The position numbers were made by a program, and so were the translations under genes. Below are positions 4,091 through 12,633 of a stretch of DNA of 64,000 nucleotides, piece after piece. The stretch's first letter is position 1. Each line of letters starts with the position of its first letter. The notes beneath the pieces are model-generated. The model did not search any database. It saw nothing but the letters and a program-made list of their open reading frames with translations, and was not told the DNA's origin. The stretch is from Acidobacteriota bacterium (lineage in GTDB: Bacteria; Acidobacteriota; Terriglobia; Bryobacterales; UBA6623), in contig WGMB01000015.1 in NCBI GenBank assembly GCA_016125275.1, positions 186,001 through 250,000 of the forward strand. The letters are read 5' to 3'.

Positions 4091-4191
4091 ATCGGCGCTC
4101 CAGGCAAGGGGCTGCAGCTCGCTCTCCCCGTCCTGATTCTAGCGCCGGGGGCCAAATCGAGAATCGATGCGGTTCCGGTAAGATAGCCGGA

Positions 4192-5160
4192 ATGCACAGA
4201 CGGACCATGCTCTCCGCCCTCGCCGGCGGCGCCGTAGCCGCCGCGTCGGCCGGCCAAGCCCGGGCCGCGGCCCCGACCCGCGTCAACAAGGCCATCGACC
4301 TGCTCAGCCAGGACCAGCCCATCTACTACTACACCGCCGGCCGCGGCGGCAGCCAGGGAGGCTTCAAGGAAGGCCTCGCGCTGGCCAAGACCTGGGAGGA
4401 CTTCATCATCTACGAGATGGAGTTTGGGCCCTACGACCCCAGCGAGCTCCGTGAATTCATGGCCGGCCTCGTGCTCGGCGGCCCCACCGCCAGCGGTCAC
4501 CGCACGCCCGCCGTGCAGGTCGTGCTGCCGATCTCCGGCTGGGACGCCGCAACGGTCCGCGCCAACCACTGGGTCATCCAGCAGATCCTGGCCGCCGGAG
4601 TGCACGGCGTCACCCTCTGCCACGCCCGAGACCCCGAAGCCGTGCGCGAATTCGTACGCTGCGCCCGCTTTCCGCACTACCGCAAGGGCGTTGATGACGG
4701 TCCGCTCGGCGAGGGCTATCGCGGCAATGGCGGTCAGGGCCATGCCTCCAAGGTCTGGGGAATCTCGCCCAAGGAGTACCTCGAGCGCGCCGACGTGTGG
4801 CCCCTCAACCCTCGCGGCGAAGTCCTGCTGGGGCTCAAGATCGAGGACCGCTACGCCATGGAGAAGGCCGAGGAGATCGCCTCCGTCCCCGGCATCGGCT
4901 ACGCCGAGTGGGGCCCTGGCGACATGGGCCTCTCGCTCGGCTATCCCGAGGTTCACGACCCGCCGTACAACCAAGAGGTCGAGGCCGCCCGCCAGAAAGT
5001 CATGGCCGCCTGTAAGAACGCGAACATTGCGTTCCTCGACGTGGTCACCGAGCAGAACGTCGAGGAGCGGCTGGCCGAAGGCATGCGCGTGGGCGCGGCG
5101 CGGTCCGAGGAAGCCGCCAACAAGGGCCGCCGGCTCACCAAGCGCCCCAAACCCTGGTAA
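4192..5160 (+). CDS. Exported HpcH/HpaI-type aldolase/citrate lyase family protein
   Basis: A 322-residue protein related to class II 2-keto-3-deoxy aldolases (HpaI, RhmA, GarL), which split or form 2-keto-3-deoxy acids with a divalent metal. The metal-site region is visible as YAEWGPGDMGLSLGYP, matching the family's GPxDLxxSLGxP. The ATG at 4192 gives a Tat-like signal (HRRTMLSALAGGAVAAASAGQARA), so the enzyme is probably exported folded; known HpaI aldolases are cytoplasmic. The frame stays open upstream to 3949, but that part is Arg/Pro-rich and non-coding in character. A strong hairpin (5180-5210) separates the gene from the cytochrome gene downstream. Exact substrate is unknown. Confidence 0.8.
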   Translation: MHRRTMLSALAGGAVAAASAGQARAAAPTRVNKAIDLLSQDQPIYYYTAGRGGSQGGFKEGLALAKTWEDFIIYEMEFGPYDPSELREFMAGLVLGGPTASGHRTPAVQVVLPISGWDAATVRANHWVIQQILAAGVHGVTLCHARDPEAVREFVRCARFPHYRKGVDDGPLGEGYRGNGGQGHASKVWGISPKEYLERADVWPLNPRGEVLLGLKIEDRYAMEKAEEIASVPGIGYAEWGPGDMGLSLGYPEVHDPPYNQEVEAARQKVMAACKNANIAFLDVVTEQNVEERLAEGMRVGAARSEEAANKGRRLTKRPKPW

Positions 5161-5179
5161 GCTCGCTAAACCCTGGCAA

Positions 5180-5210
5180 ATACGGGGCCCTGCGCCACTG
5201 GGTCCCGTAT
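5180..5210 (+). promoter_or_regulatory. 11-bp hairpin between aldolase and cytochrome genes
   Basis: Bases 5180-5190 pair with 5200-5210 as an 11-bp stem containing one G-T pair, with a 9-base loop. It starts 20 bases after the aldolase stop codon and ends 14 bases before the next ATG. There is no T-run, so it is not a classical intrinsic terminator. TATACT (5208-5213), a good -10 sequence, overlaps the right arm without a recognisable -35. A terminator, an operator or an mRNA-stabilising element are all possible. A GAGG ribosome site lies between the hairpin and the ATG. Confidence 0.5.
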
Positions 5211-5224
5211 ACTGAGGCTGTCCC

Positions 5225-7711
5225 ATGCGCCGGTCGAAGACGTTTCTGGTCGCTTTTTGCCTGCTGACTTCGGTCGGCCGAGCCGCCGAAGGCTCGCCCG
5301 AACAGATACAGTTCTTCGAGCAGACGATCCGGCCGCTGCTGGTGAAGAGCTGCCTGGGCTGCCACAACGATCAGACCAAGATGAGCGGGCTCTCGCTGGC
5401 TTCGCGCGAGTCGGCGATGCTGGGCGGCAACCGCGGCTCGGCCGTCATCCCCGGCCAGACCGCCGAGAGCCTCCTGCTCCAAGCCGTCGGCCGCGAGGGC
5501 GACCTGAAAATGCCGCCCACCGGCCCGCTGGCGGCCGAGGACGTGCAGGCGCTCACGGCCTGGGTACAGAATGGAGCCGCCTGGGGCGACGCCGGCGGAC
5601 GCGTCCGCGCCACGGCCTCGCACTGGTCCTTCCAGCCGGTGCGCCGGCCCGAGCCCCCCGCGGTGCAGGACGCGTCTTGGGTGCGGACGCCCATCGACCG
5701 CTTCGTGCTCGCCAAGCTCGAAGAGAAAGGCGTGAAGCCTTCGGCGGAAGCCGACCGGCGCACCCTCATCCGGCGCGTCAGCCTGGACTTGCTGGGCCTG
5801 CCCCCCAGCGCCGCCGAGATCGAAGCCTTTCTGGCCGACGACCGCCCCGACGCCTACGAGCGCCTCGTCGACCGGCTGCTCGACTCGCCTCGCTACGGCG
5901 AACGCTGGGGACGCCACTGGCTCGACATCGCCCGCTACGCCGACTCCAACGGCTATTCCATCGACGGCGCGCGCTCCATCTGGCGCTACCGCGACTGGGT
6001 GATCAACGCGCTCAACAACGACATGCCGTTCGACCAGTTCGTCGTGGAGCAGATCGCCGGCGACCTGCTGCCCAACCCGACCCAGGAACAGCTCATCGCC
6101 ACCGGCTTCCACCGCAACACGATGATCAACCAGGAAGGCGGCATCGACTACGAGCAGTACCGAGTGGAAGCCGTCGTCGACCGCGTCTCCACCACCGGAG
6201 CGGCCTTTTTGGGACTGACGGTCGGCTGCGCGCGCTGCCATGACCACAAGTTCGATCCCATCGCGCAGCGCGAGTTCTATCAGCTCTACGCCTTCTTCAA
6301 CAACATCGACGAGCTCGGCGGCAATATCCCCGACGGCGAGGGCCCCAGCCGCACCATGGACCCCTTGCTCGAATTCGGCGAGCCCGATCAGTTCGCCCGC
6401 CGCGACGCCCTCAAGGGCCAGATCGCCATTCTCGAAGCCGAGCTGCTCGACTACCAGAAGGAGCTCGAGAAGGACTGGAAGCGCTTCGCCACCGGCGAGG
6501 ACGCCGAGCTCGAAGCGCGCGTCCAAGCGGTCTTGGAAACGCCCGTGGAGCAGCGCTCCACCGTCGACCGTGGCACGCTGCAGCGTTTCTTCGCCGCCCG
6601 CGACCCGGCCTGGAAGGCCCGCGAGGACGGCATCAAGGCGCTGCGCGGCGAGTTCCCCCGCATCGAGTCCACCATGATCATGCGCGAGCTGCCCGAGCCG
6701 CGCGAGGCCCACGTGCTGATCCAGGGCGACTTCACCCGGCCCGGCGACGAGGTAGAGCCCGGCGGGCTGTCCGTGTTGCCGGCGATGCCCCAGGGCAAGA
6801 CCTTGAACCGTTTGGACCTGGCGCACTGGCTGATCTCCGAGGACAACCCGCTGACGCCGCGCGTGACCGTCAACCGCATGTGGCAGCGCTACTTCGGGCT
6901 CGGCATCGTGGAGACCGAAGGCGACTTCGGCTCCCAGGGGACTCTGCCGAGCCACCCGGAGCTGCTCGACTGGCTGGCCTCCGAGCTGATCCGCCGCGAC
7001 TGGGGCATGAAGAGCATGCACCGGCTGATCGTGACCTCGGCCACCTATCGGCAATCCTCGGAAGCCCGCCCGAACGCCGCCCAGGTCGACCCGTCCAACC
7101 GCCTGCTGGCGCGCCAGAATCGCACGCGTCTGGAAGCGGAGATCATCCGCGATGCCGCCCTGGCCGCCTCCGGCCTGCTCACTGACAAGATCGGCGGCCC
7201 CAGCGTCTTTCCGCCGCAGCCGGCCGGCGCCGGGCAGTTCACGCAGGTCGATCGTCAGTGGAAGGCCGACGAAGGCCCCGACCGCTACCGGCGCGGCATG
7301 TATACGTTCTTCTGGCGCTCGGCGCCGCACCCCGGGCTGACGCTGTTCGACGCGCCCAACGCGCAGGAAGCGACCACGCGGCGCAACAGCTCCGACACGC
7401 CGTTGCAGGCCTTGACGCTGCTCAACGACCAGGCCCAGGCCGAGTTCGCCGCGGCGCTGGCGAAACGCGTGCTGGCGGCGGAAGAGGACCGCGACGGACG
7501 CCTGCGGTTCGCCTTTGAAACCTGTCTGGCTCGCCCGCCGGCTCCGGACGAGCAACAACGCATGGACGCCTATCTGGCGCGCATGACCGATGAATTCAGC
7601 ACCAGCGAGCAGGCCCGCCAGGCGCTGGGCAGCTCCACCGCGGAGGAGGCCGCCTGGACGGCCGCGTCGCGGGTGCTGCTGAACCTCGACGAGTTCGTCA
7701 CGCGCCAATAG
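5225..7711 (+). CDS. Planctomycete-type cytochrome C / DUF1549 / DUF1553 (PSD1) protein
   Basis: An 828-residue exported protein. A signal peptide (1-20) leads into a heme-binding module with CLGCH (Cys43, Cys46, His47) and a MPP methionine further on, the pattern of the planctomycete cytochrome C (PSC) domain. Next comes DUF1549 (about 145-350), with its own CARCHDHKFDPI motif (Cys335, Cys338, His339), a coiled spacer near 390-450, and DUF1553 (about 525-790). The GAGG site at 5214 fixes the ATG. The gene forms a tight unit with the DUF1501 gene 19 bases downstream, the pairing known from Planctomycetes and Solibacter. The pair is thought to act in periplasmic polymer or sugar oxidation, but no reaction is established for the family. 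Confidence 0.9.
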   Translation: MRRSKTFLVAFCLLTSVGRAAEGSPEQIQFFEQTIRPLLVKSCLGCHNDQTKMSGLSLASRESAMLGGNRGSAVIPGQTAESLLLQAVGREGDLKMPPTGPLAAEDVQALTAWVQNGAAWGDAGGRVRATASHWSFQPVRRPEPPAVQDASWVRTPIDRFVLAKLEEKGVKPSAEADRRTLIRRVSLDLLGLPPSAAEIEAFLADDRPDAYERLVDRLLDSPRYGERWGRHWLDIARYADSNGYSIDGARSIWRYRDWVINALNNDMPFDQFVVEQIAGDLLPNPTQEQLIATGFHRNTMINQEGGIDYEQYRVEAVVDRVSTTGAAFLGLTVGCARCHDHKFDPIAQREFYQLYAFFNNIDELGGNIPDGEGPSRTMDPLLEFGEPDQFARRDALKGQIAILEAELLDYQKELEKDWKRFATGEDAELEARVQAVLETPVEQRSTVDRGTLQRFFAARDPAWKAREDGIKALRGEFPRIESTMIMRELPEPREAHVLIQGDFTRPGDEVEPGGLSVLPAMPQGKTLNRLDLAHWLISEDNPLTPRVTVNRMWQRYFGLGIVETEGDFGSQGTLPSHPELLDWLASELIRRDWGMKSMHRLIVTSATYRQSSEARPNAAQVDPSNRLLARQNRTRLEAEIIRDAALAASGLLTDKIGGPSVFPPQPAGAGQFTQVDRQWKADEGPDRYRRGMYTFFWRSAPHPGLTLFDAPNAQEATTRRNSSDTPLQALTLLNDQAQAEFAAALAKRVLAAEEDRDGRLRFAFETCLARPPAPDEQQRMDAYLARMTDEFSTSEQARQALGSSTAEEAAWTAASRVLLNLDEFVTRQ

Positions 7712-7730
7712 CTAGAGGGAGAAAGAGACC

Positions 7731-9170
<1,440 letters not shown>

Positions 9171-9173
9171 ACC

Positions 9174-9872
9174 GTGACGGATCTCGACCGCAGACTCGAA
9201 GCCCTTCGCCACGACCGCAACAACGGCGCTCAGGCTTTGGCCTTGGAGGCCCTGGCGATCGCCCGCGAGTGGGCCGAACGCGGAGGGAACTGGGCCTCGC
9301 TGGCCGCCGAGCTGCGCCGCATGCATCCGGCCATCGCGCTGTTGCGCAACGTGGCGCGGCGGCTCGACGAGGAAGGCCCCGCCGTCGTGGAAACACTGCG
9401 AACCTCGCTGGTGGAGGGTAACCGCAGCATTGCCGCCAAGTTGCGGGAAGCGCTGCCCCGCGACGCCGTGATCCTCACGCTCTCCCACGGCTCGACCGTC
9501 CGGGAGGCCTTGCCCGGCTTACAGCCTCGCGAGGTCCGCATCTTCGAATCGCTGCCGGGCGGAGAGGGCCGCACGCTGGCCGAGCGACTGCCCGGCCTGA
9601 AGACGACGCTGTTTCCTGACGCCGCCATGGGCCGCGCGGCCGTGGGCGCCGACCTGGCGCTGGTGGGCGTGGACAGCTTCGACCCCGACGGCGCCCTGGT
9701 CCACAAAGTCGGCACCCTGCCGCTGGCTCTCGTCTGCCGCTTCCGCAGCATCCCCCTCTACGCCGCCGGCCACAGCCTCAAGCGCGTAGAGACGCCCTTG
9801 GCCGAGCTGCCCGATGACCCCTGGTTCGACCGCACGCCGCCCGAGCTGATCCGCGCCATCCTCACCGAGTAG
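9174..9872 (+). CDS. Small eIF2B/MtnA-like (initiation factor 2B family) protein
   Basis: A 232-residue cytoplasmic protein of the eIF2B-alpha / methylthioribose-phosphate isomerase superfamily. The C-terminal Rossmann-like half shows the core ADLALVGVDSF...GALVHKVGTLPLALVC (Asp167, Lys178, Gly180, Thr181) and the phosphate loop SHGSTV at 104-109. Real MtnA isomerases carry a catalytic Cys in this loop; here the equivalent region is SHGS, so MtnA activity is unlikely. The length is well below the ~330-350 residues of MtnA. It starts with GTG three bases after the DUF1501 stop. A sugar-phosphate isomerase or ligand-binding regulatory role are both possible. Confidence 0.75.
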   Translation: MTDLDRRLEALRHDRNNGAQALALEALAIAREWAERGGNWASLAAELRRMHPAIALLRNVARRLDEEGPAVVETLRTSLVEGNRSIAAKLREALPRDAVILTLSHGSTVREALPGLQPREVRIFESLPGGEGRTLAERLPGLKTTLFPDAAMGRAAVGADLALVGVDSFDPDGALVHKVGTLPLALVCRFRSIPLYAAGHSLKRVETPLAELPDDPWFDRTPPELIRAILTE

Positions 9873-9912
9873 CGGCGGATCGGCTATCCTCAAATTTGTC
9901 GTTCGAGCGTCC

Positions 9913-12633
9913 ATGATCGGGCGAAGCATCTCGCACTACCGCAACCTCGAAAAGATCGGGGAAGGCGGCATGGGCGTGGTCTACAAGGCCGAAGACACGA
10001 ACCTGGACCGCGTGGTGGCGCTCAAGTTCCTGTCGCCCCGGATGCTCGACGACCCGCAGGCCAAGGAGCGCTTTCTGCGCGAAGCCAAGGCCGCCGCGTC
10101 GCTCCACCACCCCAACATCTGCACGATCTACGAAGTCGGCGAAGCCGACGGCGAGACCTTTCTGGCCTTCGCCTTCCTCGAGGGCGAGAGCCTCGAGAGG
10201 CGCCTGGCCGACGGGCCCCTGCCGTTCGAAGACGCCCTCAACATCGCCCAGGACGTCGCCGCCGGGCTGGCCGCCGCCCATGAGAAAGGCGTTATCCACC
10301 GCGACGTCAAGCCCGCCAACATCATGATCGGCCCCGACGGGCGGGCGACCATCATGGATTTCGGGCTGGCGCTGCTGGGGCGGGCTTCGCGGCTCACGAC
10401 CAGCGAGCAGGTCCTCGGCACCACGGCCTACATGGCGCCGGAGCAGACGCACGGCGTCTCCGCCGACGCCCGCTGCGACATCTGGGCCTTCGGCTGCGTG
10501 CTCTATGAGATGCTCACGGGCATCCAGCCGTTCGAGGCCGAGTACCCCCAAGCGATCCTCTACCGGGTGGTCAACGAAGACCCTCAACCGCTGTCGGAAA
10601 TCCTGCCGGACGTCTCTCCCGAGCTCAGCGCGATGGTCGAGCGGGCGCTCGAAAAGGAGCCCGCCGCGCGCTACCAGACCGCCCTGGCGCTGGCCTCGGA
10701 GCTCGAGGATCTGGGCCGCCGGCTGCACATTGCGCGGCACCAGGCGGTCGCCGCCCCGGTGCGCCGGCCCTTGCGCTCGTCGGCCGGTCGCCTTGGAGAC
10801 TCCGCCGCACCCCTCCCGGCGCAGTCCTCGGCGACCTCCGCCGTCGAGGGACCCGTCTCCAACGCCCCGGTCTCCCCGGCGCGCTCCTGGCCCAAGATTT
10901 TCTGGTTCGCCGCCGGCATGTTGGCCGCCATCCTGTTGGTGGCCGGCTTGTGGCGCGGCGGCGGCCCCGCGCGGGAGCATTCCCTGCGCTGGTTTACGGT
11001 TGTGCCGGAATCTCTGAGCCCCACCGAGCAGGACGGCGCCGTCGCCGTTTCGCCCGACGGACGCTACCTGGTCTACGTCTCCGGCGAGCAACCGCCGTCG
11101 CTGTGGGTGCGCTCGCTGTCCGCACCCGAGCCCCGCAAGCTGGCCGGGACGGAAGGCGTGCGCCCCGGGCCTTTTTGGTCGCCCGACAGCCGCTACCTGG
11201 CCTTCGCCTCCGGCAACGACCTCAAGCGCATTCCCGTAGCCGGCAACGAGGCCCCGGCGCTGATCTGCCGCCTCCCCGGATCGTTCTTCGTGGGCGGAAG
11301 CTGGAGCGACGACGGCGAGACCGTCGTGTTCTCCTCCGGCTGGAGCGCCGTGGGGCTCTATCAGGCGCCCTCGCACGGCGGGGAAGCCGTCCAGATCGCT
11401 CCCCCCGAGCCCGGCAGCTTCGAAGTCCACCCCCATCTGCTGCCCAAGCATACCGACAGTCTGTTGCTGTCGGCCGTGCGCGGCGACCTGTGGCAAGTGG
11501 CCGTCCGCAACCTGCGCACCGGCGAGGTCCGTACGCTGGTCGAAGGCGGGAAGCCGGTCTACGATGGCTCCAGCCGCCGCATCCTCTACCAGGCCAGCCT
11601 CGACCGTGGCGGCGTCTGGAGCGCTCCGTTCAACCTCGGCAGCCTCGAGACCGACGGGACGCCGGCGCTGGTCTCCGAACGCCTCCGCGACGCCTCGGTG
11701 TCGCGCGACGGCCTGCTGGTGGGGGTGCAGGCGCAGGACCCGCCGCCGCAGCGCCTGGTGCTGCTGGACCGCCACGGCGCCGTCCTTGGCTCGGCCGGTA
11801 GGCCCCAGGCCCTGATGTACTTTCCGGCCTTTTCGCCCGACGGCCGCTCGGTCGCCGTCTCCGCCCGCGATTCACTCGCCGACGGCTACGACATCTGGAT
11901 TCACGACGTTGACGGCGACGGCAAGCGCCGGCTCAGCTTCGACGAAGGCCGCCGCGCGGCCCCCGCCTGGTCGCCTTCCGGAGACCGCGTCGCCTACTCC
12001 ATCCGCGACGGAGCCAGCCTGCGTGTGCGCGACGCCTCCGGCGGCGGCGCGGCGAGCCCCCTGCTGGCCTCCCGCAACACCGCGGGCGATGAGGGCGAGG
12101 CGGACTTTTCCCCGCGAGAACCGCTGATCGTCTTCCGGCGCTCCAGCGGCTCCGGCTCCGATATCTGGCTGCACGACGCCCGGCCCGGCCGCGAGGCCTC
12201 CGACCGCCCGCTGCTGGCCACCGCCGCCAACGAGGAGATGCCGCAGATCTCGCCCGACGGCTCTCTGCTGGCCTATTGCTCCGACGAGACCGGCCGCTTC
12301 GAGGTCTACGTGCGTTCGTTTCCGGAAGGCGAGCAGCGCTGGCGAGCCTCCGACGGCGGCGGCTGTCAACCGCGCTGGAGCCGCGACGGCCGAGAGGTCT
12401 ACTACGAGACCACCGGCGCCCTGTTCGCCGTCAACGTCGCCCGCGCCCCGGCCGTCTCTCTGTCGGCCCCGGTCAAGCTCTTCGCCCGCCGCAACCTCGA
12501 CGGAACCACCTGGGACTACGACGTGGACGCCCGCGGTCGCTTCGTCACGCTCGAAGCCGACGTCGACGCCGAGGCCGCCGCCCGCCGGGCGACCATCCAC
12601 ATCATTGAAAACTGGGAAGAGGGCCTGCTGTAG
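9913..12633 (+). CDS. Membrane Ser/Thr protein kinase with TolB/WD40-like (PD40) propeller
   Basis: A 906-residue one-pass membrane kinase. The kinase domain (about 9-272) has the glycine loop GEGGMGVVY (16-24), ATP-binding Lys38, the catalytic HRDVKPAN loop (130-137), DFG (150-152) and APE (176-178), so it should be active. A Pro/Ala-rich linker leads to a single membrane span (about 331-347). The exported part is a TolB/PD40-type beta-propeller with repeats of the form SPDGRYLVY, FWSPDSRYLAF and ISPDGSLLAY. This architecture is common in Acidobacteria, where the propeller probably senses an external ligand or protein. No cognate substrate or phosphatase gene is adjacent. The start follows a 40-base gap after the eIF2B-like gene. 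Confidence 0.92.
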   Translation: MIGRSISHYRNLEKIGEGGMGVVYKAEDTNLDRVVALKFLSPRMLDDPQAKERFLREAKAAASLHHPNICTIYEVGEADGETFLAFAFLEGESLERRLADGPLPFEDALNIAQDVAAGLAAAHEKGVIHRDVKPANIMIGPDGRATIMDFGLALLGRASRLTTSEQVLGTTAYMAPEQTHGVSADARCDIWAFGCVLYEMLTGIQPFEAEYPQAILYRVVNEDPQPLSEILPDVSPELSAMVERALEKEPAARYQTALALASELEDLGRRLHIARHQAVAAPVRRPLRSSAGRLGDSAAPLPAQSSATSAVEGPVSNAPVSPARSWPKIFWFAAGMLAAILLVAGLWRGGGPAREHSLRWFTVVPESLSPTEQDGAVAVSPDGRYLVYVSGEQPPSLWVRSLSAPEPRKLAGTEGVRPGPFWSPDSRYLAFASGNDLKRIPVAGNEAPALICRLPGSFFVGGSWSDDGETVVFSSGWSAVGLYQAPSHGGEAVQIAPPEPGSFEVHPHLLPKHTDSLLLSAVRGDLWQVAVRNLRTGEVRTLVEGGKPVYDGSSRRILYQASLDRGGVWSAPFNLGSLETDGTPALVSERLRDASVSRDGLLVGVQAQDPPPQRLVLLDRHGAVLGSAGRPQALMYFPAFSPDGRSVAVSARDSLADGYDIWIHDVDGDGKRRLSFDEGRRAAPAWSPSGDRVAYSIRDGASLRVRDASGGGAASPLLASRNTAGDEGEADFSPREPLIVFRRSSGSGSDIWLHDARPGREASDRPLLATAANEEMPQISPDGSLLAYCSDETGRFEVYVRSFPEGEQRWRASDGGGCQPRWSRDGREVYYETTGALFAVNVARAPAVSLSAPVKLFARRNLDGTTWDYDVDARGRFVTLEADVDAEAAARRATIHIIENWEEGLL

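Follow-up and report, generated by a model that had tools for sequence, protein, structure and literature searches.

What does a protein of the superfamily of MtnA, ribose-1,5-bisphosphate (R15P) isomerase and the eIF2B subunits do in a bacterium once the catalytic cysteine of the enzymes has been replaced, and does it work together with the DUF1501 gene that it directly follows? This is the question raised by a small gene in the window (the whole stretch of 64,000 nucleotides that was analysed), for which a reading of the sequence alone had suggested a sugar-phosphate isomerase variant or a ligand sensor, tied to the exported PSD1/DUF1501 pair upstream.

The gene and the fold of its product

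The open reading frame (9174-9872, forward strand, GTG start, TAG stop) encodes 232 amino acids that match PF01008 (Pfam IF-2B) with an E-value of 1.7e-17 (64 bits versus a gathering cut-off of 22.4), and the superfamily named in the sequence-only reading is borne out by Pfam, structure and alignment alike. Its start lies exactly three bases past the DUF1501 stop, as had been claimed (TAG at 9168-9170, ACC as the spacer, GTG from 9174). The DUF1501 assignment of the neighbour is correct as well (PF07394, E 2.7e-149); this neighbour is in turn preceded by a PSCyt1/PSCyt2/PSD1 gene. The features of the locus are:

5225-7711, + strand: PSCyt1-PSCyt2-PSD1 gene, upstream (neighbour only, outside the system)
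7731-9170, + strand: DUF1501 gene, upstream (neighbour only, outside the system)
9171-9173, + strand: three bases separating the DUF1501 stop codon from the GTG start codon
9174-9872, + strand: Ser-type eIF2B-like gene, 232 amino acids, GTG start, TAG stop
9913-12633, + strand: Ser/Thr protein kinase gene with PD40 propeller, downstream (neighbour only)

Upstream of the PSD1 gene, positions 4186-5160 encode an HpcH/HpaI aldolase-like protein (PF03328), the N-terminus of which resembles a twin-arginine export signal.

In an AlphaFold2 model built on a 27-row alignment (pLDDT 95.8, pTM 0.91), the helical N-domain and the Rossmann-like C-domain of the superfamily are both present. The top structural match is PH0440 (1vb5; Z 30.5, rmsd 1.7 Å over 232/232 residues), which is also ranked first by Foldseek, followed by R15P isomerase (5yfx; Z 27.6, rmsd 1.8 over 231 residues), MtnA (2yvk; Z 26.2) and eIF2B-alpha (Z 24.7); for the C-terminal domain there is a further match, to ribose-5-phosphate isomerase A (4gmk; Z 13.2 over 128 residues). 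The protein had been described as short, which is correct for its length, but no domain is missing: according to the model it is compact yet complete, since the best structural match covers all 232 residues.

When the window protein and its three closest relatives are combined into a profile and compared with solved chains, the first match is the same, 1vb5 (E 1.3e-25), with human eIF2B-alpha second (E 6.7e-20), then eIF2B-beta (E 8e-14) and, more weakly, R15P isomerase (E 8.3e-11) and MtnA (E 2e-8). For every NCBIfam equivalog that it touches, the window protein scores far under the cut-off (e.g. 19.9 bits versus 279 for the MtnA equivalog TIGR00512); models of the PRK08335/PRK06372 neighbourhood give 75.8 versus a cut-off of 249 and 54.9 versus 339.

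The ligand pocket

As the reference for the pocket the R15P isomerase of P. horikoshii was used, with counterparts read from a MAFFT alignment and residues counted over 60 rows. In this enzyme, according to PMC5789824, Cys135 and Asp204 are catalytic, the 1-phosphate is contacted by Arg22, Arg65, Gln166 and Lys215, the 5-phosphate by Ser137, Lys240 and the backbone, and the sugar by Asp204, Asn214 and Lys215, while a C135S variant is inactive and still binds R15P (Kd 13.8 uM). The same source describes eIF2B-alpha as having kept the 5-phosphate and ribose contacts, with those to the 1-phosphate absent. For human eIF2B-alpha, a second source (PMC8187479) lists G196, A129, Y130, E198, N208, R132 and K234 as contacts to fructose 6-phosphate (F6P), the binding of which is abolished by N208Y. 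The corresponding positions of the window protein are:

9222-9230, + strand: Asn17-Gly18-Ala19, at Arg22-Gly23-Ala24 of R15P isomerase; the 1-phosphate Arg is lost, Gly-Ala is kept
9324-9326, + strand: His51, at the 1-phosphate Arg65 (the "RP" Arg)
9483-9500, + strand: SHGSTV loop, residues 104-109, with Ser104 at the catalytic Cys135 and Gly106 at the 5-phosphate Ser137
9564-9566, + strand: Glu131, at the 1-phosphate Gln166 (the "QG" Gln)
9672-9674, + strand: Asp167, the kept catalytic and sugar-binding Asp204
9702-9707, + strand: His177-Lys178, at Asn214-Lys215 (Asn208-Lys209 of human eIF2B-alpha), with Asn replaced by His
9780-9782, + strand: Lys203, the kept 5-phosphate Lys240 (Lys234 of eIF2B-alpha)

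Asp167, Lys178 and the SHGSTV loop are thus as the sequence-only reading had them. The loss of the catalytic Cys also stands, with Ser104 in its place, but the pocket has changed further than had been listed: N17, H51 and E131 occupy the places of the Arg/Arg/Gln holders of the 1-phosphate, and the family Asn that precedes Lys178 is His177. Among the four close proteins only the window copy has Gly106; the other three all have the phosphate-holding Ser.

Serine at the place of Cys135 is found in 29/29 Acidobacteriota proteins of this type (the four close proteins and 25 others, called Ser-type here), as are Glu at Gln166 and Gln or His at Arg65, so that the three always occur together. The Asp167 equivalent is present in 28 of the 29, and the Lys240 equivalent in all four close proteins and 24 of the 25 others. 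By comparison, Cys, Gln and Arg occupy the same three sites in 19/19 MtnA rows and 10/10 R15P-isomerase-like rows, nine of the latter also being without Arg22. Asn214 is kept in all of these MtnA and R15P-like rows and in 23 of the 25 other Ser-type proteins (the exceptions being His in L036 and Ser in L061), whereas it is His in all four members of the window's clade. The other Ser-type proteins are also mostly longer and have different gene neighbours; those of G155 and G285 (L023, L025) share its signature of Ser, Glu and Gln or His.

A Cys-type, R15P-isomerase-like group with the motif FTHCHSS was also observed, consisting of nine proteins from two Acidobacteriota families (L026, L027, L029, L033, L035, L037, L039, L040 and L042, from genomes G160, G078, G169, G178, G151, G130, G105, G118 and G092). 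All nine have Gln at the archaeal 1-phosphate Arg22, and several have common gene neighbours.

Among known proteins, PH0440 ("aIF2B-alpha") is the best match by both sequence and structure and also has Ser for the Cys, Glu for the Gln, the Asp, the Lys and the 5-phosphate Lys; it differs in having Asn instead of His177 and 276 instead of 232 residues. Human eIF2B-alpha (3ecs, 7kma, 7kmf) shares the fold, the lost Cys and 1-phosphate contacts and the 5-phosphate Lys, but has Ala at the Cys place, Glu198 for the Asp, and Asn208 kept. R15P isomerase (PH0208, TK R15Pi) has the fold, the core Asp and Lys and the 5-phosphate Lys in common with the window protein, in which its Cys, Arg22, Arg65, Gln166 and Asn214 have all been replaced. 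The MtnA of the same genome shares the superfamily and the Asp/Lys core, whereas the Cys, both Arg, Gln and Asn that are present in all 19 MtnA rows have likewise been replaced. PMC8576121 treats it as an unsettled matter whether the archaeal homologue serves as an initiation factor or as an enzyme.

Since the 1-phosphate contacts are lost and the 5-phosphate Lys is kept, as in eIF2B-alpha, the aligned residues point to a pocket that follows eIF2B-alpha, with one additional change that is peculiar to the clade, at the Asn that contacts the sugar. The explanation that we consider probable is a non-isomerase, similar to eIF2B-alpha and PH0440, that binds a sugar monophosphate or nucleotide and acts on a partner. 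By its residues the protein belongs to the Ser-type (PH0440/eIF2B-alpha-like) branch of the superfamily. It would be cytosolic and probably a dimer; its ligand, bound via the Gly-Ala loop, Asp167, Lys178 and Lys203, would be a nucleoside monophosphate or a sugar phosphorylated at position 5 or 6, and the protein would catalyse neither the MtnA nor the R15P isomerase reaction. Computation gives the fold, the superfamily, the branch, the residue replacements and the lack of a conserved linkage; judging by its homologues, a phosphate ligand, a dimer and a lost isomerase activity would be expected. Binding might then be relayed to the partner through closure of the domains or stabilisation of the dimer, as with F6P in human eIF2B-alpha, and a regulatory output is a guess. 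The putative ligand sensor of the sequence-only reading is compatible with this in so far as the ribose/5-phosphate half is mostly kept as in eIF2B-alpha.

Several observations go against this explanation. The counterpart of eIF2B-alpha N208 is His in the whole clade, so that a different ligand or none may be bound, and Gly106 takes the place of the phosphate Ser in the window copy; because of these two changes, a simple copy of the eIF2B-alpha pocket becomes less plausible. The Asp has been kept (instead of the Glu of eIF2B-alpha), and the near-invariance of Ser104, Glu131 and Asp167 could mean catalysis. In addition, there is no conserved operon from which a regulatory target could be read. 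Human eIF2B-alpha acts in the eIF2B decamer, which is not known from bacteria, and no eIF2 is known in bacteria that could serve as the partner.

The main rival, which we regard as rather unlikely, is an enzyme with changed chemistry, i.e. a sugar-monophosphate isomerase, epimerase or lyase with a substrate that has no 1-phosphate. In such an enzyme, Asp167 with Glu131 (or with Ser104 or His177) might conceivably take over from the Cys/Asp pair. The invariant Ser and Glu, with the Asp in all but one of the Ser-type proteins, would fit this, as would the Asp being kept where human eIF2B-alpha has Glu, the fixation of His177 in the clade, the match of the C-terminal domain to ribose-5-phosphate isomerase A (4gmk), and the sugar or nucleotide genes that adjoin some Ser-type relatives (e.g. 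a MoCF_biosynth gene in 4/34 contexts). On the other hand, the genome already has MtnA and RpiB, and no catabolic operon is common to the contexts of the four close members.

Gene neighbourhoods

A functional unit of this protein and the exported PSD1/DUF1501 pair, in which it would serve for example as a cytosolic sensor or processing factor, would be in line with the three-base gap, the common strand and a search of 4900-10100 that found no sites resembling promoter or terminator consensus, a result of little weight in a genome of this kind. In the gene contexts that were read, genes were predicted with a simple script based on ORFs and GC3, which may miss small or overlapping genes (in 5/36 contexts it missed the eIF2B-like ORF, which was recovered from all ORFs), and several of the fetched stretches end at contig ends. 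Read in this way, none of the three close orthologues has a DUF1501 gene nearby (17.5-19.9 kb read each). In G005 and G009 the eIF2B-like gene is accompanied by phosphoglycerate dehydrogenase, a small ORF and a Gfo/Idh oxidoreductase, and in G018 by a TPP-enzyme gene and a UxuA/TIM-barrel gene. Including these three, a DUF1501-like gene occurs in 2/28 non-own Ser-type contexts and is never adjacent: in G024 a PSD1-DUF1501 pair begins 1.1 kb downstream of the Ser-type gene, and in G052 a URO-D gene lies between the Ser-type gene and DUF1501. These two contexts are the only results in favour of a linkage.

The pair itself could be traced in two genomes. Counterparts of the window's DUF1501 with 78% identity lie in G009:C46 and G005:C35, both preceded by PSD1 (66-67%) and followed by a gene that we take to be NrdR-like, and the eIF2B-like gene is absent from the 16-kb stretches round both pairs. 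The best DUF1501 of G018 (62%) has PSD1 before it and a Ser/Thr kinase directly after it (33% identity to the window kinase), with no eIF2B-like gene between DUF1501 and kinase. As far as gene order goes, the window may resemble G018 with the eIF2B-like gene inserted, although chance is also possible. Furthermore, the genome itself has 51 DUF1501 genes over the cut-off, only one of which adjoins a PF01008 gene, and because of this number a chance DUF1501 neighbour is unremarkable. About 50 DUF1501 genes per genome, mostly near full length, were counted in G000, G005 and G009.

A conserved DUF1501 linkage is hence rejected both ways, as the close orthologues are unlinked and the orthologous pairs lie elsewhere. 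The check on its conservation that the sequence-only reading had proposed thus found the linkage absent in other genomes, and the claim of a tie to the pair did not survive. A functional unit is already largely refuted and very improbable; the eIF2B-like protein would act apart from PSD1 and DUF1501, the proximity of which appears to be a local accident. The three-base spacing reflects at most co-transcription and translational coupling in this one genome, and it is for this genome only that the DUF1501 part matters.

Other neighbours recur in parts of the family. A MoCF_biosynth gene lies near the Ser-type or other family gene in 4/34 fetched non-own contexts; in L088, L092, L094 and L095, from two Acidobacteriota families, it adjoins the Ser-type gene (with an overlap in L088) and is presumably CinA-like. 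A neighbour that we take to be GTP cyclohydrolase I-like was found in 5/34 contexts, three from one genus and two from another: within ~6 kb in L076, L077 and L083 (one genus of the window's order), and as a divergent gene adjoining the Ser-type gene in G155 and G285 (L087:7060-7653 and L089:7130-7735). Neither neighbour is common to the four close members. In G005 and G009, genes that are presumably folB/folK-like lie 2-3 kb from the eIF2B-like gene.

Distribution, constraint and phylogenetic placement

In the order (257 genomes), members of the clade were found in four genomes, namely the window's, G005 and G009 (same family, 3/18 genomes of which have it) and G018 (same order), and no member was found in G007, the third genome of the genus of G005 and G009. 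Ser-type proteins, classed by residues, occur in 18 of the 257 at E <= 1e-8, and in a phylum sample there were matches in 21/396 genomes, of the Ser-type in 12 (the window's own genome among them) and of the Cys-type in 9, all of these genome counts being lower bounds because a single-sequence query misses divergent members. The order scan also gave a second, weak match at G512:C194. A scan of the GTDB 220 contigs with the single protein gave no relative, and a four-row profile gave three matches, being the G005, G018 and G009 contigs again; plasmids and viral contigs gave no match to the protein.

It is possible, although we would put it only tentatively, that the Ser-type eIF2B-like proteins form a phylum-wide Acidobacteriota class, apparently undescribed, of sensors or of enzymes with new chemistry. 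Such a class might be marked by a concerted switch from Arg/Cys/Gln to Gln-or-His/Ser/Glu, to which the Bryobacterales subclade would have added the change from Asn to His. Its members could then perhaps be metabolite sensors, from the part of the superfamily that became the eIF2B sensor, or carry a catalytic set of Asp and Glu (and His). A literature search found no paper on eIF2B-like proteins of Acidobacteria, which does not prove that none is in print.

A decaying, functionless remnant is hardly credible. The loss of the Cys, the Asn and (in the window copy) the phosphate Ser would agree with it, as would the patchy occurrence (3/18 own-family genomes), but the gene is intact in 4/4 genomes, identity across genera is 50-53%, the model reaches a pLDDT of 95.8, and the nearest pair (G005 and G009) has a dN of 0.047 and a dS of 0.139, i.e. 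a dN/dS of about 0.34. Going by these substitutions, the eIF2B-like gene is evidently under constraint.

For the placement, a tree of 52 rows and a tree of 38 rows with the longest branches removed were used, in neither of which a root was inferred. The first left out second copies (L078, L079, L082, L091, L102), odd or over-long ORFs (L036, L053), five MtnA rows and a partial eIF2B-alpha reference, with three rows trimmed at the N-terminus to the expected start; the second left out further MtnA and R15P rows and the long-branch L041, L061 and L063. In both trees, MtnA and R15P isomerase share one side of a branch without this clade (100/98 in the 52-row and 100/99 in the 38-row tree). The four close proteins group as a clade (100/98), which joins the G155/G285 proteins (L023, L025) at 99/97 in the 38-row tree; this join is flagged as long-branch in the 52-row tree, and unflagged in the 38-row tree. 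In the latter, MtnA is a separate clade (100/100), PH0440 stands beside the Cys enzymes (93/81) and the Ser-type rows are not shown to be a single clade, for which reason the Ser-type may be the older state, the tree being unrooted.

The least probable explanation is a true MtnA- or R15P-type isomerase with Ser replacing Cys, which has the same fold and the kept Asp167 and Lys178 in its favour, but against it that C135S kills the P. horikoshii enzyme (PMC5789824), that the counterparts of Arg65, Gln166 and Arg22 are lost, that MtnA is encoded elsewhere in the genome (its two PF01008 genes being the window gene and MtnA, G000:C3:260521, with Cys, Asp and Asn-Lys), that the RuBisCO-large-like protein is nearest OiaX and below cut-off, and that 38-row trees constrained to unite the clade with R15P isomerase, with MtnA or with both are rejected (p-AU 0.0013, 0.0018 and 0.0082, respectively). 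With the Cys and the 1-phosphate contacts gone and the AU tests placing the clade inside neither enzyme group, the isomerase variant of the sequence-only reading, in the MtnA or R15P sense, is disfavoured.

Two metabolic routes were also rejected. A substitute for a missing ribose-5-phosphate isomerase fills no gap, as RpiA is absent and RpiB present in this genome. Nor is a route via R15P and RuBisCO shown, as the sole RuBisCO-large match scores best with OiaX, with 464.7 bits versus a cut-off of 700, and its type III RuBisCO score is 229 versus 497. The gene in question (G000:C10:180063-180890; L106:6055-7317) is RuBisCO-like, nearest to the 3-oxo-isoapionate-4-phosphate decarboxylase OiaX yet below its cut-off, and lies a few genes from another DUF1501 gene.

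To return to the binder similar to eIF2B-alpha and PH0440: if the Ser-type proteins bind without isomerising, the sensing pocket of eIF2B-alpha would have bacterial parallels or a forerunner and, if this is true, small soluble proteins could be used to test how a translation regulator arose from a sugar enzyme. The results are also a warning against naming such proteins automatically as MtnA, R15P isomerase or "translation initiation factor".
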